DNA from: a virus
IMG/VR virus record: IMGVR_UViG_3300042564_001094
Location: 1 to 23,667 of that record
DNA length: 23,667 bases
Reading direction: 5' to 3' (one strand)
Below, piece after piece: positions 7,575 to 21,411 of the stretch. Position numbers and translations under genes: made by a program. The notes beneath the pieces are model-generated. The model was not told the origin of the DNA, ran no database searches, and saw nothing but the letters and a program-made list of their open reading frames with translations. Position 1 is the stretch's first letter. Every line of letters begins with the position of its first letter.

Positions 7575-7916
7575 GATATAATACAGATGATGAAAAAGAT
7601 TTTAACCACTCATTGGTTAGGGCTAATATTGGTTAGCCTTTGCAGTTAGGATAAATGCTAATCTATCCTAACTAAAAAGTCCTGGAAGCAGATCTTACGG
7701 TATGCAACCAGGAACATTTAAAAAACAACTCCTTGCATGCTCACCATGCTTGTAGATTTGATTGGACATAGTTTACTGTCCACCTGTTGACGTGCACATC
7801 AGAGCAGGGTCCATCACAGTTCACTTTGGGTCATTTAACACTTATTGGGTAATTACTCCCATAAGCCAAAGTTTCTTTCAACGGTGCTAATCCGCCCTCT
7901 GTAAGGAGTTGTTTTT
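7575..7916 (-). ncRNA. Candidate structured noncoding RNA directly 3' of tRNA-Leu
   Basis: This is a 342-nt gene-free interval between the encoded CCA end of the tRNA and a terminator. Immediately after the tRNA, 7903-7917 (minus) pairs perfectly with 7720-7734 over 15 bp (AAAAAACAACTCCTT on the plus strand). The enclosed 168 nt hold nested helices: CAGAG/CTCTG (7800-7804 with 7897-7901), ACTTTGG/CCAAAGT (7823-7829 with 7866-7872) enclosing CTTATTGGG/CCCATAAG (7841-7849 with 7858-7865), GGACA/TGTCC (7764-7768 with 7777-7781) and GCATG/CATGC (7735-7745 region). Beyond the closing stem, four more perfect hairpins follow in series (7680-7713, 7644-7673, 7621-7638, 7603-7619). No open frame longer than about ten codons was seen. 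The family is not recognised. Confidence 0.6.
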
Positions 7917-8005
7917 TGGTACTACCAGTGGGAATCGAACCCACACTGTCATTACTGACAACAGGATTTTAAGTCCTGCGCGTCTACCTATTCCGCCATA
8001 GTAGC
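7917..8005 (-). tRNA. tRNA-Leu (anticodon UAA)
   Basis: The minus strand reads GCTACTATGGCGG, then TAGGTAGACGCG of a Leu-type D arm, an anticodon stem-loop with loop CTTAAAA (anticodon TAA, reading UUA), a long variable arm TGTCA-GTAA-TGACA typical of class II tRNAs, and the T arm GTGGG-TTCGATT-CCCAC. The acceptor stem pairs with one G-T at position 1-72 and one internal G-T. The discriminator A and CCA are encoded (7917-7920). UUA is a common Leu codon in this AT-rich genome, so the tRNA probably supplements the host. It is not a stop suppressor. Confidence 0.95.
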
Positions 8006-9319: not shown

Positions 9320-9556
9320 TTAGTCTACTTTGTGGATGATAGGATACTTAAGTCTTTCCTTTAAGAACTGTTTACGTGCTACTACCCTTTCTTTTGCTTC
9401 ACTTAGAGTTTGACATCTAGATTGTGCAGAAGATATCCTTTCCCATATATATTTAGGAAAGCGGTTATCTATGTACCTCCAATGATGAAAGATGCTTAAT
9501 TTTTCTTGAGGATAGAAGCTTGATTCTCCCTCTTGTAAGATTCTGTACTTTGCCAT
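9320..9556 (-). CDS. Hypothetical 78-aa protein
   Basis: The protein opens MAKYRILQEGESSFYPQEKL and has an aromatic, basic middle (HHWRYIDNRFPKYIWERI) followed by a helix TLSEAKERVVARKQFLKERL. The layout, a strand with YxPQEK then a WW-type core and a LxEAKE helix, resembles small phage proteins with no known role. It is the first gene of the three-gene unit ending at 8075. Its leader reads AACTAAACTTAAAACTAAAAC, A-rich without a Shine-Dalgarno sequence. Confidence 0.6.
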   Translation of the reverse strand: MAKYRILQEGESSFYPQEKLSIFHHWRYIDNRFPKYIWERISSAQSRCQTLSEAKERVVARKQFLKERLKYPIIHKVD

Positions 9557-9579
9557 AGTTTTAGTTTTAAGTTTAGTTA

Positions 9580-9606
9580 AAAGAAAGGGGGAAATAAATC
9601 CCCCGG
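9580..9606 (-). terminator. Rho-independent terminator
   Basis: The minus strand reads GGGGGA / TCCCCC (6 bp, 9587-9592 with 9599-9604) with loop TTTATT, then TTTCTTTT. It starts right after the stop at 9607. Confidence 0.8.
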
Positions 9607-9756
9607 TTAATCTATACCTACTTCTTTAGAGGCATAGTACGCAGAAAATGCCCGGCTAACACCTTGCATCCTAAAAAATCTGTAAAAGTCCAGGTATTCA
9701 TATAATAACCCGTAAGACTTAGCTACATACCAATGTTCTGTAAATTGATCTATCAT
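9607..9756 (-). CDS. Small hypothetical protein, 49 aa
   Basis: The ATG at 9756 gives a 49-codon frame: MIDQFTEHWYVAKSYGLLYE, then a Tyr/Phe-rich helical part YLDFYRFFRMQGVSRAFSAYY, ending KEVGID. The start is 4 nt after the lipoprotein stop and the stop touches a strong terminator, so it fits precisely as the last gene of a two-gene unit. No function is known. Confidence 0.6.
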   Translation of the reverse strand: MIDQFTEHWYVAKSYGLLYEYLDFYRFFRMQGVSRAFSAYYASKEVGID

Positions 9757-9760
9757 AAGC

Positions 9761-9913
9761 TTATCTATATTCTAAGAACTCACCATGATAATAACGTTTA
9801 GACTTCTTCCCACAACCATGAGGAATTCCGGATGATCTTCTACTAGCACAAGAAGCCAATAGAGAGGAGAGCATTACTATCAGTAACACTTGTCCAATAA
9901 TTTTCTTTTTCAT
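9761..9913 (-). CDS. Small lipoprotein
   Basis: I take the ATG at 9913 (MKKKIIGQVLLIVMLSSLLA, 50 aa); a longer reading would begin inside the terminator hairpin. The N-terminus is a lipoprotein signal: KKK, a hydrophobic core, and lipobox LASC with C22 as the lipidated residue. The mature part is only 29 residues, Ser/Arg/Gly/Lys-rich, with a second cysteine (GIPHGCGKK). Small phage lipoproteins are known in other systems to block receptors or DNA entry of competing phages, but here this is only a possibility. Its leader begins just after the terminator that ends the structured RNA array. Confidence 0.7.
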   Translation of the reverse strand: MKKKIIGQVLLIVMLSSLLASCASRRSSGIPHGCGKKSKRYYHGEFLEYR

Positions 9914-9940
9914 ATAATGTATCTGTTTAAGTTTAATAAT

Positions 9941-9997
9941 AAAAAAACTACAAGGTCCTCTAGACGTGTTAGTAGGATATACCATACCTTGTAGTTT
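9941..9997 (-). terminator. Long-stem terminator ending the structured RNA array
   Basis: AAACTACAAGGT at 9945-9956 is perfectly complementary to 9986-9997 (12 bp), with a small inner CCT/AGG stem, and the minus strand continues with seven T and ATTATT. As an alternative it may be a 5'-UTR element of the lipoprotein gene. Confidence 0.75.
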
Positions 9998-10579
9998 AAA
10001 ATAGGCATTTCACCTATTAGTAGTCAGTAGTTGACTATACTGCATTGCTTCATCAGCACTTATGCTATGCTTTTGTACTGTTCGGTATAATACCAAAGAG
10101 TACAGTTTACTTCCATCTGCACTCAGTTGTAATAAGAGGCTTTACTAAGAGCAAACATGCCTACTTAGTTACGTTATTACAACTGCTCACCCTTTGGAAA
10201 CTGATTAATTGGGGGAAATACATAAGTATTTCTTGGGTTAATCAGTGTGGCTTCATTCATTAGCTGTCTAAGACATTACCTATCAGTAAGGCACTAATAA
10301 ACTTATACCACGTGAGTTGTGGTGCATTAAAGTAATTCAATTGTAACAGCAGCTCTTTTACAGTATCCTCTCTGTGTTCTAAGAAGCAATGCTTCACAGA
10401 TACCTTCCTGTCGTTCTGTTGGAAGAGAGCACCCTTCCGCTTACTTTACTGTTACAATTGTTTACTCCACTCTGCATTCAATTGTAATACTTGGAATACT
10501 GTCCTATCTTGTATTTCTACTAAGGATACTGTTCACTTGATTACAATTGCCGGTCCTTGTGAAACCGGTTATGATGCAT
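9998..10579 (-). ncRNA. Candidate structured noncoding RNA array of stem-loop modules
   Basis: This is 582 nt without a credible gene, flanked by minus-strand terminators at both ends. Three modules have related closing stems: CAGTTGTAATAA (10124-10135 with 10174-10185), CAATTGTAACAG (10338-10349 with 10449-10460) and CAATTGTAAT (10479-10488 with 10540-10549), all perfect. The 123-nt middle module contains further helices (GGAAG/CTTCC, GTATC/GATAC, TGTG/CACA, GAAGC/GCTTC). Other hairpins are 10000-10018, 10021-10037, 10074-10104 with inner GGTATAATACC, 10201-10245 (CTGATTAA outer and GAAATAC inner stems) and 10307-10323. Linkers repeat: a 28-nt stretch at 10105-10132 matches 10460-10487 at 23 positions, and TGCATTAAAGTAA occurs at 10323 and 10575. 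The minus strand is favoured by the flanking terminators. No known RNA family was recognised. Confidence 0.6.
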
Positions 10580-10606
10580 TAAAGTAAAGGCCCGGTTAAG
10601 AGCCTT
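10580..10606 (-). terminator. Terminator-like hairpin
   Basis: AAGGC / GCCTT (10587-10591 with 10602-10606), followed on the minus strand by TTACTTTAAT. It begins at the stop codon of the gene at 10605 and separates it from the RNA array. The T tail is interrupted, so termination may be partial. Confidence 0.55.
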
Positions 10607-10838
10607 AGTCACACCAACTCCTAGAACAAGATGGACAAGAGATAATATGTGAAGAAGTAGATACTTTAAAAGCCTCTTCTTCTCCATACTTCTCTATTAA
10701 CATCTCACCTAGAGTCTGTAGCTTACCGTATTGCTCTCCTCTAACCCAGTTATACATATGGTTACAAGAGGTATAAGCAAATAAAGGTAGTTTTTTCTGT
10801 TTACAGAATAAACGCTGATTGTCATAATATATATCCAT
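10605..10838 (-). CDS. Hypothetical protein with C-terminal Cys cluster
   Basis: A 77-aa protein starting MDIYYDNQRLFCKQKKLPLF. The middle, TSCNHMYNWVRGEQYGKLQTL, contains Cys/His and an aromatic core, and the end, SHIISCPSCSRSWCD, has three cysteines in a CPxC...C pattern. Together with the first cysteines this would make one small zinc site. Proteins of this form with a terminal CPxCxRSxCD tail are hypothetical proteins in phages of gut Bacteroidota as far as I recall. The first gene upstream of the RNA array, it has a hairpin-rich leader (10870-10918). Confidence 0.65.
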   Translation of the reverse strand: MDIYYDNQRLFCKQKKLPLFAYTSCNHMYNWVRGEQYGKLQTLGEMLIEKYGEEEAFKVSTSSHIISCPSCSRSWCD

Positions 10839-11215
10839 ACCTACTATAATAGTAACGCTCTGAGCCTAAATGGCTATTTATACTCCCTCAGAGGAGTGTT
10901 AATCAATCAATTAGCCATATAATGGCCCCATCTTCCCCCATATACTCCCACTTCTTACCACTTTGTCACACTGTATGTTTTAGTGGTAAGTGTTTTAGTC
11001 ACACATCCTCACACCCTCACACATGTCTACTGTATTATACAGTTTGTCATGAAAAAGTTAAACATTATGACAATTGTCTCAAGAATTACGGGGTTTATAG
11101 TTTCAAAAGTTAAACAAAACTGTTTTTGACCCTATATGTGTATGACATAGTTTATCATCCATTCGTAATCCTCTCTTCATCCAAGTATTGCTCTATAACA
11201 AATTCTATATAATAA
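10839..11215. other. Gene-free, hairpin-rich interval
   Basis: No credible coding frame is visible in these 377 nt. Several inverted repeats are present: ATGGCTA/TAGCCAT (10870-10876 with 10912-10918) enclosing ACTCC/GGAGT (10882-10886 with 10893-10897), TTACCACT/AGTGGTAA (10955-10962 with 10982-10989), ACTGTA/TACAGT (11029-11043), and TGTCAT/ATGACA (11045-11050 with 11067-11072). The word AAAGTTAAACA occurs at about 11055 and 11108. It probably holds the leader and promoter of the gene at 10838 and perhaps another structured RNA. Confidence 0.5.
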
Positions 11216-11254
11216 AAGGAATACAGCGCAGGATTATCCCACACTGTATTCCTT
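11208..11254 (-). terminator. Rho-independent terminator
   Basis: AAGGAATACAG (11216-11226) is perfectly complementary to 11244-11254, with an inner GGAT/ATCC stem; the minus strand continues TTTATTATATAG. It ends the gene at 11260-11700. Confidence 0.8.
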
Positions 11255-11259
11255 ATCCA

Positions 11260-11700
11260 TTACTCACCTGATTCTTCAGTGAATGGATTTGCTTCAGGCA
11301 TTGCTACCGCACTTGCTACTGCACTTGGTTCAGCAACAGCAACTGTGCTTGGTGCAGATACACCTGTTAATTGCGCAAACAAATGCTGTGCGCTTAACTG
11401 TGCAAATGCGTTACCCAATGTGGTGTTACCCAAACGCTCTGTTGCTGACATAATTTTCTGCACAGAGTTGTTGGCTACATACACACCTGTTTTGTCCCGG
11501 TTAAACTGCAGTTCCAATTCATTGGGTGCGAAGTCTTCACGGTAGAAAAACAATGGGCGTTGGTTCTCTTCATTTACACGGTAGTAATCACCTTGGATTT
11601 CAGCGTACAAGTGAAGTTGTTCAGGAGTTGCAGAGGTAATCTCATAGACTTTTACAACTCTTCCATTTTTGGAATACTCATTAATCTTTTTTGCTTTCAT
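11260..11700 (-). CDS. Hypothetical 146-aa protein, first of the leftward arm
   Basis: The protein begins MKAKKINEYSKNGRVVKVYE. Residues 1-75 form a probable beta-rich domain (VYEITSATPEQLHLYAEIQG, PLFFYREDFAPNELELQFN), followed by a helix (IMSATERLGNTTLGNAFAQL) and an Ala/Val/Ser/Pro-rich low-complexity tail ending in acidic ESGE. Codons are richer in GC than in the neighbouring small genes (GCA/GCT/GCG alanines), which could mean high expression or different origin. I do not recognise the family. It is the first gene of the minus strand next to the divergent region, a usual place for very early genes, and stands alone ahead of a strong terminator. Confidence 0.65.
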   Translation of the reverse strand: MKAKKINEYSKNGRVVKVYEITSATPEQLHLYAEIQGDYYRVNEENQRPLFFYREDFAPNELELQFNRDKTGVYVANNSVQKIMSATERLGNTTLGNAFAQLSAQHLFAQLTGVSAPSTVAVAEPSAVASAVAMPEANPFTEESGE

Positions 11701-17245: not shown

Positions 17246-17406
17246 TGAACTGGTGCATAAGTACAACAGCAATGGAAAATGTTACAGTTAATATAACATA
17301 TATCAGTTACTATTCTGATGAAGATGAGGAAACTGTAGACATTAATATGAATGAATTATTAGAACAACCTAACACAACAATTACAGACTATGGCTTATCT
17401 TTATAG
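17245..17406 (+). CDS. Small acidic ORF between TerL and a homing endonuclease gene
   Basis: The ATG overlapping the TerL stop (TAATG) opens a 53-codon frame: MNWCISTTAMENVTVNITYI, then SYYSDEDEETVDINMNELLE, ending DYGLSL with TAG. It is beta-prone, then acidic. It runs 17 nt into the GIY-YIG gene. The TAATG coupling argues that it is translated, but its natural 3' end may have been lost when the endonuclease gene entered. No function is known. Confidence 0.5.
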   Translation: MNWCISTTAMENVTVNITYISYYSDEDEETVDINMNELLEQPNTTITDYGLSL

Positions 17407-17932
17407 GCATATTAGATTAGATAAAAATGAACCCTTTTATATTGGTATCGGTAGTGATGAAAAATATAAAAGAGCTAATTCTGTCAATCCTAGAACAAAA
17501 TATTGGAAAAATATTATTTCTAAAACGGAATATAGGGTTGACATAGTTATGGATAATTTAAGTTGGGAAGAAGCTTGTGAGAAAGAAAAAGAATTTATAG
17601 CATTATATAAAAGAAAATCTGATGGAGGAATTCTTTGTAATCTAACTCTTGGTGGTGAAGGTGTATATGGTAGAATTTTATCACAAGAAACTAAAAATAA
17701 AATCTCTGAAAAAATATCTGGTGTAAACCACGGTATGTATGGAAAATCTCATACAGAAGCTGCAAAAAATAAAATTATGGAAACAGCTTCAAAAAGAGTA
17801 ATTAATACAAAAACTAATGAGATATTTACATCTATAAAAAATGCTGCTATCAGTATGAATATGAGACCTAATACATTAACAAGAAAACTTTCTGGTATTA
17901 GAAATAATGATACAGTATTTAAATTAATTTAA
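17390..17932 (+). CDS. GIY-YIG homing endonuclease with NUMOD repeats
   Basis: A 180-aa protein. Residues 3-19 give the GIY-YIG pair as YLY...YIGIG, followed by a downstream Arg, an acidic helix (EEACEKEKEFIALY) and the closing CNLTLGGEG motif typical of the family. Residues 96-130 contain NUMOD3-like repeats (LSQETKNKISEKISG, GMYGKSHTEAAKNK), and the end is a NUMOD1-like helix-turn-helix (KNAAISMNMRPNTLTRKLSG), which bind the target DNA. Freestanding homing endonucleases cut phage genomes lacking the gene and spread into them. It lies between the terminase and portal genes, is visibly richer in A/T than both, and is not flanked by a recognisable intron. Confidence 0.9.
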   Translation: MAYLYRHIRLDKNEPFYIGIGSDEKYKRANSVNPRTKYWKNIISKTEYRVDIVMDNLSWEEACEKEKEFIALYKRKSDGGILCNLTLGGEGVYGRILSQETKNKISEKISGVNHGMYGKSHTEAAKNKIMETASKRVINTKTNEIFTSIKNAAISMNMRPNTLTRKLSGIRNNDTVFKLI

Positions 17933-17941
17933 AAAAAGAAA

Positions 17942-20695
17942 ATGCAACTTTTTAACGCACTGCAATTAAAAAATGGAGCAAAGGTAGAACATAACCGTAT
18001 GTCTACTTTAACTCAACCTATACAGTTTATTCCGCGTAAGGAAAAAAATGATGATTGGTCAGCTCACAATCTTGATTGGCTAGAATGGCAGGGTATGAAG
18101 CAGTTACGTAGAAATGCCAGAAGGCTTTCTAAGAACTACAAACTTGCTAAAGGTATTATTGACCGGACAGATTATATTGTAGAAGAGGATGTAGAGTACG
18201 CTGAGTTAATTGATGTTCTTACAAAAGAAGATCAGTCAGCATTAGAGTTAAAGTTTTACCCAATTATCCCCAATGTAATTAATGTATTAGTAGCAGAATT
18301 TGCTAAAAGAAATACAAGGGTTAGTTTTAGGGCCGTAGATGAGATTTCATACAATGAGTTATTAGAGCAGAAAAGAGCCATGATTGAGCAGAAGCTATTA
18401 GCTGATGCTGAACGTAAAATGGTTATGAGTATGATTGAGCAAGGTGCTGATATGGAAGATCCTGAAATCCAGAAAGCATTAGCTCCAGAGAATCTTAAAT
18501 CATTACCTGAGATTGAGCAGTACTTTAAGAAAGATTATAGATCTATGTTAGAGGAATGGGCAGAACACCAAGCCCGTGTAGATGAGGAAAGATTTAAGAT
18601 GGATGAACTTGAAGAGAGAGCTTTCCGTGATATGTTAATCACAGATAGAGAGTTCTGGCACTTTAAGATGAATGAGGATGACTATGAGATGGAGTTGTGG
18701 AACCCGTTGGTTACTTTCTATCACAAGTCTCCTGATGTAAGATATATCTCTCAGGGTAACTGGGTAGGTAAGATTGAGTTATACACTGTAGCAGATATCA
18801 TTGACAAGTATGGTTACCTAATGACTGATGATCAGTTACGTTCTATGGAGGCTATTTATCCTACAAGAGCAGCGGGTTATCCTTTACAGGGTTATCAGAA
18901 TGATGGTTCTTACTATGATGCTACTAAGTCTCATGAATGGAATACTAATATGCCTTCATTACAGTACAGACAGTTTATGTCTACCTGGGAGCAAAATAGT
19001 ACTGCCGGTAATGATATTGTTAGTTACATTATGTCTGAGTCTGAAGACTATGTAGATTACAAGAATACAGACATGTTACGGGTGGCTCACATTTACTGGA
19101 AGTCACAACGTAAAGTAGGACACTTAACTAAGATTGATGAGAATGGTCAAGTTATCCAAGATGTTGTAGATGAGTCATATAAAGTTACTCAGAAACCTAT
19201 CTATGATACTACACTATTCAAGAATAAGAATAAAGAGAATCTGGTTGCCGGTGAGCATATTGACTGGATTTGGATTAATGAGGTATGGGGTGGCGTAAAG
19301 ATTGGGCCTAACTATCCTGCATACTTTGGTATGAATAACAACTCTGGTGGTATTAACCCTATTTACTTAGGTATTAATCAGCCAAAACCCGGACGTGTAC
19401 CTTTCCAATTTAAAGGAGATGCTACACTGTACGGTTGTAAATTACCAGTGGAAGGATCCGTATTCTCAGATAGAAACACTAAGTCTACATCTTTAGTAGA
19501 TTTAATGAAGCCTTACCAGATTGGTTATAACATTGTAAATAACCAAATTGCTGATATCCTTGTAGATGAGTTAGGTACAGTGATCATGTTAGATCAGAAT
19601 GCTTTACCTAGACATTCATTGGGAGAAGATTGGGGAAAGAACAACTTAGCAAAAGCCTACGTTGCAATGAAGAACTTCCAGATGTTACCATTGGATACAT
19701 CCATCACTAACACTGAGAATGCTCTTAACTTCCAACACTATCAGGTATTAAACTTGGAACAGACACAGCGTTTGATGTCTAGAACTCAATTGGCTAACTA
19801 CTTTAAGCAGCAGGCATTTGAGGTAATAGGTATTACACCACAGCGTCTTGGAGAACAAGTGGAACAAGCTACAGCTACCGGTGTAAGAATTGCTGTATCA
19901 AACTCTTATGCACAAACAGAGACATACTTTATTAATCACTGTGATTACTTAATGCCTCGTGTACATCAGATGCGTACAGACTTAGCCCAGTTCTATCAGT
20001 CAACCAAACCATCTATCAGATTGCAGTACATTACTTCTACTGATGAGAAAGTTAACTTTGAGATGAATGGTACTGACTTATTGCTCAGAGACTTTAATAT
20101 CTTCTGTACAACCAAAACTAATCACAGAGCTACTCTGGAACAGTTAAAGCAATTGGCTATCACAAACAACACCGCAGGTGCCTCTATCTATGATTTAGGT
20201 AATATCATGAAGGCTGAGTCTATTGCAGAGGTTACACATATCCTTAAATCAGCTGAAGAGAAACAAAATGCTCAACGTCAGCAAGAAATGCAACAACAAC
20301 AAGCTATGCAAGAACAAGCTTTACAAGCTAAGTCTCAAGAAGCTATGATGAAGATGCAGTTTGAATCTGAGGAGAATGAGAAGGATAGACAGAATGATAT
20401 TGTTATTGCTGAGATTAGAGCTGCTGGTTATGGATCTACTGTAGATATTAACCAAAACCAGCAATCTGACTATCAAGATGCTATCAGAGATATCCGTAAG
20501 AGTGAAGAGTTTCAGCAGCAAATGGATTTAAAGAAAGAATCTGCTAGTACTCAAAAAGCTATGAACATGGATAAGATGGCAATTGAGCGTGAAAAGCTAG
20601 CCTCACAAAGAGAGATAGCTAATAAACAATTAGAGATAGCAAGAACTAATAAAACTCAGTACGAGATTAAACAAGAAAATAATAAAAAGAAATAA
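17942..20695 (+). CDS. Portal protein
   Basis: A 917-aa protein with the length, position (after TerL) and sequence character of crAss-like portals. Residues 1-19 precede a second possible start, MSTLTQPIQFIPRKEKNDDW, at residue 20, so the true N-terminus may be at 17999. The body has an early helical part with KFYPIIPNVINVLVAEFAKR near 100, long charged helices at 140-230, and a central mixed domain of 250-750. Residues about 770-917 are Gln/Glu/Lys-rich coiled coil. The ring sits at one vertex and passes DNA packaged by TerL. Its last residues NNKKK are encoded in a 17-bp imperfect repeat recurring after the next gene, and the original C-terminus seems to have been longer. Confidence 0.85.
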   Translation: MQLFNALQLKNGAKVEHNRMSTLTQPIQFIPRKEKNDDWSAHNLDWLEWQGMKQLRRNARRLSKNYKLAKGIIDRTDYIVEEDVEYAELIDVLTKEDQSALELKFYPIIPNVINVLVAEFAKRNTRVSFRAVDEISYNELLEQKRAMIEQKLLADAERKMVMSMIEQGADMEDPEIQKALAPENLKSLPEIEQYFKKDYRSMLEEWAEHQARVDEERFKMDELEERAFRDMLITDREFWHFKMNEDDYEMELWNPLVTFYHKSPDVRYISQGNWVGKIELYTVADIIDKYGYLMTDDQLRSMEAIYPTRAAGYPLQGYQNDGSYYDATKSHEWNTNMPSLQYRQFMSTWEQNSTAGNDIVSYIMSESEDYVDYKNTDMLRVAHIYWKSQRKVGHLTKIDENGQVIQDVVDESYKVTQKPIYDTTLFKNKNKENLVAGEHIDWIWINEVWGGVKIGPNYPAYFGMNNNSGGINPIYLGINQPKPGRVPFQFKGDATLYGCKLPVEGSVFSDRNTKSTSLVDLMKPYQIGYNIVNNQIADILVDELGTVIMLDQNALPRHSLGEDWGKNNLAKAYVAMKNFQMLPLDTSITNTENALNFQHYQVLNLEQTQRLMSRTQLANYFKQQAFEVIGITPQRLGEQVEQATATGVRIAVSNSYAQTETYFINHCDYLMPRVHQMRTDLAQFYQSTKPSIRLQYITSTDEKVNFEMNGTDLLLRDFNIFCTTKTNHRATLEQLKQLAITNNTAGASIYDLGNIMKAESIAEVTHILKSAEEKQNAQRQQEMQQQQAMQEQALQAKSQEAMMKMQFESEENEKDRQNDIVIAEIRAAGYGSTVDINQNQQSDYQDAIRDIRKSEEFQQQMDLKKESASTQKAMNMDKMAIEREKLASQREIANKQLEIARTNKTQYEIKQENNKKK
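20678..20694 (+). repeat. Direct repeat left of the second homing endonuclease gene
   Basis: AATAATAAAAAGAAATA matches 21410-21426 with one mismatch. It lies in the last codons of the portal gene, in the same reading frame. Confidence 0.7.
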
Positions 20696-21411
20696 TGGTA
20701 TTTATATATGTTTTAAAAGATCCTACTACTTTAGAAGTAAAGTATGTAGGTAAAACAGCAACCACTATTCAAAAACGTTATTCTCAACATAAACACAATT
20801 GGAAAAGAAAAGTAGGAAGATTAAATAGATTAAATAGTTGGATTAAAAATTTAGCTAAATCTAATATGCTTCCTCTAATTGAAGTTATAGATGAGGTAGA
20901 TGACAATTCTTGGATTGAAGCTGAAAGAGGTTATATACGTTTATTTAAAAGTATAGGTTGTAATTTAAAAAATCATACTATGGGTGGAGAAGGAACTTGT
21001 GGTTATAAAATGTCTAAATCCTCCATTGTTAAAAGAAATAATACACTTAAAACATCTAATGCATGGGCTAAAAAGAATATAGAGCATTCTAATATTATGA
21101 AAGAAAAACATGCAGAAGGAAGTGTTAAGTTTGGTTATGGACATTTACCAGTAGAAAAACGCATAGAAATTGGAAATAGACATTCTGAAAAGATGAAAGA
21201 AAATTTTAGTAAAAATCCAGAATGCTTAAATAGAATGATTTCTAAAATTAAAAAACCTGTAGCAAGTTTAAAAGAAGATGGTTCAGAAGATAAGTTTTTT
21301 GAATCTGCTACAGCAGCTGCAAGATTTTATAATATTGCAAATACACATGTAACTAGGGTCTGTAAAAATAAGTCTAAAAGCACACATGGACTATATTTTA
21401 AGTATGCCTAA
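20695..21411 (+). CDS. GIY-YIG homing endonuclease inserted at portal 3' end
   Basis: A 238-aa protein. The N-terminus FIYVLKDPTTLEVKYVGKT is the GIY-YIG motif (IYV...YVG), followed by an Arg-containing helix (KRYSQHKHNW), the acidic EAERGYIRLF and the closing CNLKNHTMGGEG. The middle holds Lys-rich NUMOD-like segments and the C-terminus (FESATAAARFYNIANTHVTR) a NUMOD1-like helix-turn-helix. The ATG overlaps the portal stop (TAATG), and the gene is bounded by an imperfect 17-bp direct repeat. A/T content is higher than in the portal, a sign of separate origin. It is expected to cut homologous phage DNA at or near the portal 3' end to spread itself. Confidence 0.9.
   Translation: MVFIYVLKDPTTLEVKYVGKTATTIQKRYSQHKHNWKRKVGRLNRLNSWIKNLAKSNMLPLIEVIDEVDDNSWIEAERGYIRLFKSIGCNLKNHTMGGEGTCGYKMSKSSIVKRNNTLKTSNAWAKKNIEHSNIMKEKHAEGSVKFGYGHLPVEKRIEIGNRHSEKMKENFSKNPECLNRMISKIKKPVASLKEDGSEDKFFESATAAARFYNIANTHVTRVCKNKSKSTHGLYFKYA

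Follow-up and report, generated by a model that had tools for sequence, protein, structure and literature searches.

The phi29-type pRNA is a phage RNA of ~120-170 nt built on a three-way junction with short exchangeable loop pairing codes, and pairing between the loops of different molecules builds a ring. For the large ornate phage RNAs GOLLD and ROOL, we know of no established purpose. GOLLD is large, ornate, and phage-encoded, often lies near tRNA genes, and combines a conserved 3' part with a variable 5' part; ROOL is a large phage RNA with pseudoknots that occurs near tRNA islands and has no known function; and the three-dimensional structures of both are cages (PMC12286853).

The locus described here lies in a 23.7-kb virus record, the whole of which is referred to below as the window. 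That it encodes an RNA, and that this RNA has the architecture set out below, we regard as nearly certain, and that it serves as a scaffold presenting arms is put forward tentatively. No Rfam family, GOLLD and ROOL included, matches the frames of which this RNA is composed, and the covariance models of GOLLD, ROOL, and OLE gave no match at E ≤1 in 20 loci or at E ≤10 in window positions 9500-11300. Searches of the open literature turned up no account of such an RNA, novelty being claimed relative to Rfam 15 and that literature, and the design of a frame with a swappable arm was found in no RNA family searched.

Genomic setting of the RNA

The terminase and portal genes of the window match head-packaging PHROG families, and its closest annotated records, at ~25% identity, are crAss-like and Flavobacterium phages. 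Minus-strand genes run leftward from ~11.7 kb and plus-strand genes rightward from ~12.3 kb, and the RNA locus sits in the left arm, behind the terminator of an upstream 146-aa gene (Table 1). Two proteins flanking the portal gene (17390-17932 and 20695-21411) have the look of GIY-YIG-type homing endonucleases, as judged from their translations alone.

Transcription would proceed on the minus strand from ~10.59 kb and stop at the terminator near 9.94 kb. Upstream of this stretch lie a promoter-like leader and a Pistol ribozyme, which is self-cleaving. Promoter-like sites are no more numerous in this region than expected by chance, and the leader that holds the best of them contains 13-mer words that recur in ~10 related loci. 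Two such words on the minus strand of window positions 11030-11130, GUUUUGUUUAACUUUUG and the near-palindrome AGACAAUUGUCAU, recur ahead of the RNA in 9-10 loci and are candidates for a phage promoter and operator. The Pistol match scores above the Rfam gathering score and has the conserved core. It ends on the start codon of a 77-aa gene, such that cleavage would free an mRNA almost without a leader. This gene is 73-99% identical in four relatives, with changes concentrated at third codon positions, and its product carries a Cys-rich motif (SCPSCSRSWC) at the C terminus.

An initial sequence-only reading of this interval had placed minus-strand terminators at both ends of the RNA. At the 3' end a strong one does exist, just beyond the interval then proposed, with a stem AAACUACAAGGU/ACCUUGUAGUUU followed by a U run, and it is nearly identical in L015, L017, L032, and L039. 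The supposed 5' terminator is a weak hairpin, and the clear upstream terminator is that of the 146-aa gene. Because of the 77-aa gene and this weak hairpin directly ahead of unit A, the 5' end of the mature RNA is uncertain.

A freshwater-1 RNA (RF02979, 84.7 bits) occurs on the minus strand at window positions 7757-7818, ~100 nt downstream of a tRNA-Leu (7917-8005), and the noncoding stretch that contains both is closed by AAAACAACUCCUU/AAGGAGUUGUUUU. In L005, L024, L166, and L187 a tRNA is likewise followed by freshwater-1, so that freshwater-1, which is said to have been described in a 2017 paper by Weinberg, probably belongs to a second larger RNA. On the plus strand, a sub-threshold match to the Bacteroidetes FopS sRNA (9545-9616, 32.2 bits against a gathering score of 56) is perhaps a hint of Bacteroidetes-type signals.

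Table 1. Features of the RNA locus in window coordinates
Feature	Position	Strand	Basis or details
Strong terminator of upstream 146-aa gene	11216..11254	-	18-pair stem, T-rich tail
Best promoter-like site ahead of RNA	11034..11061	-	TTAACT-16-TATAAT, 10/12
Pistol self-cleaving ribozyme	10835..10897	-	Rfam RF02679, 52.2 bits (gathering score 34.5)
77-aa protein gene, between Pistol ribozyme and RNA	10605..10838	-	Conserved as protein in relatives
Weak hairpin directly 5' of unit A	10587..10606	-	Sequence; absent from terminator-scan list
Frame unit A	10461..10590	-	Covariance model R1, 74.7 bits, E 5.5e-21; covariation
Unit A, P1	10588-10583/10466-10461	-	
Unit A, inner P1	10578-10574/10477-10473	-	
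Unit A, P3	10568-10564/10554-10550	-	
Unit A, P4	10549-10540/10488-10479	-	
Unit A, pseudoknot	10561-10559/10470-10468	-	Loop CAC with GUG
Unit A, variable arm	10489..10539	-	Near-same arm in L008, 95% over 63 nt
Joining arm between A and B	10338..10460	-	12-bp closing stem
Frame unit B	10107..10335	-	R1 match 10220-10102, 22.3 bits
Unit B, P1	10335-10331/10111-10107	-	
Unit B, inner P1	10326-10322/10122-10118	-	
Unit B, P3	10316-10312/10190-10186	-	
Unit B, P4	10185-10174/10135-10124	-	
Unit B, pseudoknot	10197-10195/10115-10113	-	Loop CCA with UGG
Extra domain in unit B P3	10200..10311	-	GUGG...CCAC and ACUGAUUAA...UUAAUCAGU (two-tier hairpin)
Conserved downstream hairpin CUGUACUCUUUGGUAUUAUACCGAACAGUACA	10073..10104	-	Fold; compensatory changes in relatives
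Strong terminator at RNA end	9944..9998	-	Fold -17 kcal/mol, z -2.9

A predicted pseudoknotted frame, M1

The sequence-only reading divided the interval into stem-closed modules, and the elements that it listed are all there: the closing stems of a 62-nt module (10124-10135/10174-10185, 12 bp), a 123-nt module (10338-10349/10449-10460, 12 bp), and a 71-nt module (10479-10488/10540-10549, 10 bp), the repeated linker (10105-10134 and 10460-10489, 83%), the TGCATTAAAGTAA repeat (10316-10335 and 10568-10587, 90% over 20 nt), and the two-tier hairpin (10200-10246). The stem-closed module is not the unit, however. Two patterns drawn from the repeated linkers led to ~30 viral contigs with strong mosaic similarity to the minus strand, and reading these relatives side by side revealed that the true unit is linker, arm, and linker together, a three-way junction with a pseudoknot. 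Two frames are present, whose variable arms correspond to the 71- and 62-nt modules; the repeated linkers form the frame itself.

From these comparisons, the frame, which we designate M1, is predicted to be a pseudoknotted three-way-junction RNA element with the consensus UUUACU-UUAA-UGCAY-CAYAA-P3 hairpin (loop UUCMMAAGG)-P4-variable arm-P4'-A-RUGCA-GANNGR-AGUAAA. Searching viral contigs with the P3 hairpin and its flanks found at least 119 stretches, and nearly all of those listed contain the full frame. With the arms removed, an alignment of 48 diverse frames spans 81 columns and is free of gaps, and a model of P1, inner P1, P3, P4, and the pseudoknot leaves 90.4% of cells paired, with double (compensatory) changes in 23 of the 28 pairs. 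The covariation score is 0.435 as compared with 0.156 in shuffles, none of 500 of which reached the observed value, and slid controls did not exceed 0.122. The inner P1, P3, the pseudoknot, and P4 are each 97-100% paired; the outer P1 is variable and only 61% paired, yet both of its sides change at all six pairs. M1 loci recruited through the second frame described below add the P3 stems CCUGA/UCAGG and UCUAC/GUAGA.

The pseudoknot joins the P3 hairpin loop to an internal loop of P1 through three codes, CCC/GGG (65 units), CCA/UGG (22), and CAC/GUG (17), so that 104 of 108 distinct units are paired and 4 are not. This pairing is probably formed in cis, although the covariation is equally compatible with pairing in trans. 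The geometry of the frame suits a junction with a docked P3: P3 and inner P1 are 5 bp each, a 5-nt linker lies between them, and a single nucleotide separates P4 from P1. Judging from known three-way junctions, P4 would stack on P1 to form a rod, and P3 would fold back and dock onto P1.

Changes within stems yielded G-U far more often than A-C (37 versus 7, p 5e-6), which indicates that the functional molecule is the RNA of the window's minus strand. The minus strand also folds well (z = -5.8 against dinucleotide shuffles, versus -4.4 for the plus strand, 20 shuffles each). The proposal of a noncoding minus-strand RNA, here ~580-650 nt, is thus borne out by compensatory changes, which keep the stems complementary in relatives, and by the preference for G-U over A-C. 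A protein-coding alternative is ruled out, since open reading frames do not fit and the stems covary; no gene traverses the RNA. An integron-like cassette site was likewise rejected on the 37 G-U against 7 A-C on the sense strand, and a CRISPR array or mimic on the presence of at most 2 copies per repeat in the interval and arm lengths of 25-294 nt.

The window copy is a short form of the RNA, in which unit A, the joining arm, and unit B, its P3 enlarged, are followed by a 3' tail. When the whole RNA is folded with the helices of both frames imposed, only 1 kcal/mol of 210 is lost. Unit B scores low with model R1 because of the insert in its P3, and L024 and L028 carry insertions at this site as well. 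In L005 and L024, the interior of the joining arm recurs within the P4 of unit B. Two copies of one frame support the earlier suggestion that a functional unit had been duplicated and had diverged, and its guess of "one large ornate RNA" came nearest; they are not simple tandem copies, since the frame is conserved and the stem-closed interiors are hypervariable arms swapped between phages. A hammerhead-like CUGAUGA...GAAA in the 3' tail was dropped, having no Rfam support.

L022 (6021 to the contig end), a close relative of the window, appears to carry a single chimeric frame whose 5' half is of A type and whose 3' half is of B type. Its CAC loop faces UGG, a mismatched pseudoknot that is one of the four exceptions to the code, and the arrangement looks like the product of recombination within the RNA.

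Arms that appear to be exchanged between phages

The P4 arm behaves in these comparisons as a cassette that is exchanged between phages. In L105, L134, and L153 the upstream flanks are 98-99% identical, but arm identity is 25-64%, compared with 41 ± 20% for shuffled arms; for L105 and L134, the flank is 99% and the arm 25% identical, and the alignment ends at the P4 borders. Conversely, 13 pairs of loci have arms that are 80-100% identical with 0-53 of ~3,000 flanking nucleotides alignable, among them the window's unit A arm and its counterpart in L008, despite unrelated flanks. The arms of M1 and M2, the second frame, comprise 238 distinct sequences in 162 clusters, and one arm is shared by an M1 and an M2 frame, at 85% over 46 nt (E 7e-10). 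Compensatory changes also occur within arm clusters, and the folding of arms is slightly better than that of control segments, a modest excess (mean z -0.89 versus -0.42, p 3e-4).

Arms that are exchanged like cassettes, with the breaks falling at the borders of P4, are what would be expected if the locus were a recombination platform that folds as single-stranded DNA, in the manner of integron attC, with the RNA incidental. We consider this extremely improbable, since G-U greatly exceeds A-C in the stems and does so on one strand only, the orientation is fixed relative to genes, and homologous recombination in the ~40-nt conserved 5' part of the frame and its shorter 3' part could explain the exchange.

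Exchange of arms at this speed suggests a changing partner, whether a host factor, a host defence, or a competing phage. If the frame were a stable handle and each arm captured or paired with a particular target, such as a host regulator, a defence sensor, or the RNA of a rival phage, then the RNA would be a decoy, sponge, or antisense RNA, as the sequence-only reading also put forward, and arm diversity would reflect target diversity. The hypervariability and exchange of the arms and the single locus per genome accord with this idea, but the arms are structured domains with compensatory changes, a poor fit to pure antisense guides, and we think it unlikely. Alternatively, host defences may sense the RNA and arm swapping may be a means of escape, the core function lying elsewhere in the molecule. 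Variation is indeed limited to the arms, and the frame is fixed even between phages with terminases that are 28-30% identical; arms are re-used across phages, however, rather than only drifting, and neither a defence system nor a pattern of escape was observed, which makes this explanation quite unlikely.

A second frame and ribozymes upstream

Some relatives (L136 and L104, for instance) carry 1.4-1.6 kb of noncoding sequence with recurring words ahead of the M1 frame, and the most frequent of these words make up both sides of a second frame, M2, of the form ACUCUCA-UCCAAGCAGG-arm-CAAGG-RUUGCAA-CCUUG-UGAGAGU. An exact search for M2 found at least 116 stretches or contigs. Among 83 units, the stem occurs in compensatory variants (for example, ACUCUUG/CAAGAGU, ACUCUUA/UAAGAGU, and ACUCCUA/UAGGAGU), and arm lengths range from 23 to 202 nt. 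In loci recruited by M2 alone, the model search placed 37 of 39 M1 matches 104-1444 nt downstream on the same strand, so a single noncoding stretch usually has M2 first and M1 after it. M2 seems to follow the same design as M1 and to lie upstream of it in the same RNA of relatives, which could reach 1-2 kb. The folding stability of the large RNAs of L136 and L104 is only patchy.

Another recurring block, GUAGCCRGAGCGUAAGCAGGCAGUUUUUAACUUACC...UUCCUGAACUUCCUGGUUCAUAGGGAUUAUAAUUUAAGAACC, is found between frames in L015 (10331-10742) and between A and B in L004 and L021, with a similar piece in L136 at about -530, and is possibly a third frame.

Five of 30 large contigs carry a Pistol (3 matches, one just below the cut-off) or Hatchet (2) ribozyme, a count confined to contigs picked without knowledge of ribozymes and excluding L005, L034, L039, and L071, which were included because they were known carriers. 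All five matches are on the M1 strand, 0.4-1.3 kb upstream of M1; in a subset of phages, the locus is thus headed by a self-cleaving ribozyme.

Distribution and gene context

Many uncultured relatives of crAss-like phages carry this large noncoding RNA, at about one place per genome. Covariance model R1, run on 30 contigs of 69-128 kb, recovered the frame in 29, as one copy in 23 of them and as two closely spaced copies in 6; a mobile repeat dispersed over the genome is ruled out by the single locus. Most of these contigs encode a crAss-related terminase. A terminase related to that of the window is present in 30 of 35 searched records (34 carriers), with identities from 97% down to ~25%, and conservation of the frame across terminases this divergent means that M1 is nearly invariant among very distant phages. 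In bacterial genomes R1 had no match among 4 or among 296, in searches that had no positive control and of which the larger was strictly filtered. In cultured phages and plasmids, blastn with the 1-kb region and two synthetic frames gave no useful match, the sole microvirus match covering 30 nt of a replication gene.

M1 loci are intergenic and nearly always oriented like the neighbouring genes. The next open reading frame often begins 20-50 nt downstream of the frame, a tRNA lies within 1.5 kb in a minority of loci, and in three loci only (L014, L024, and L031) it is directly adjacent, a tRNA-Glu starting a few nucleotides after P1, where RNase P would cut just 3' of the frame. Together with the ribozymes upstream on the same strand, these features would suit a cis-acting mRNA leader or processing element in which ribozyme and junctions set the ends of an mRNA, its stability, or the translation of the next gene. 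We hold this to be very unlikely. The first downstream open reading frames at 84 loci fall into 61 clusters and are unrelated at most loci, a strong terminator parts the RNA from the next gene in the window, and a leader has no need of exchangeable arms or of a 1-2 kb RNA. The varied downstream genes and the terminator make a leader for one gene unlikely, and a riboswitch or one-gene cis-regulatory leader was rejected on the same 61 clusters.

A structural RNA that may present exchangeable arms

By analogy with GOLLD and ROOL, we infer that this is a large phage structural RNA that works like them, its frames presenting exchangeable arms; this is our best reading, and we hold it with somewhat less than even confidence. 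Each frame would be a rigid pedestal that holds one interchangeable arm, and several frames in one RNA would give a large particle of defined form, with the arms setting its surface or contents. Like GOLLD and ROOL, the RNA is possibly multimeric. If the frames are fixed and rigid and the arms form a pool swapped by recombination, then the structural RNA may amount to a combinatorial display, a repertoire of particle surfaces set against hosts, their defences, or rivals. We know of no natural RNA family that works in this way, and consider this extension rather doubtful.

A modular RNA in which frames and arms can be swapped in a defined way offers a new handle on the large ornate phage RNAs. 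That the arms change rapidly and the frame does not suggests an arms race, and the partner in it can be searched for; if the arms bind molecules of hosts or rivals, then they would parallel, as RNA, the variable receptors made of protein. The finding also gives the self-cleaving Pistol and Hatchet ribozymes, whose roles in biology are to our knowledge mostly obscure, a defined position in phages, ahead of one particular noncoding locus.

Comparison with known RNA families

Freshwater-1 is present in these phages too, where it follows a tRNA, but is a separate 62-nt motif in another noncoding stretch, outside the frame. The phi29-type pRNA is likewise a three-way junction with exchangeable short pairing codes; the code of M1, in contrast, pairs the P3 loop with the internal loop of P1, probably in cis, and M1 has hypervariable arms. 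The lack of an Rfam match separates the present RNA from pRNA, ROOL, and GOLLD alike, and from ROOL it also differs in sequence and in its modular build of several frames. As for the phage-encoded, near-tRNA trait of GOLLD, ROOL, and OLE, a phage terminase occurs in 30 of 35 records, a tRNA is directly adjacent at only the three loci named above, and a minority of the others have one within 1.5 kb. The RNA of the window is, like GOLLD, large, ornate, and phage-encoded, but its variable parts are exchangeable arms set in recurring frames.
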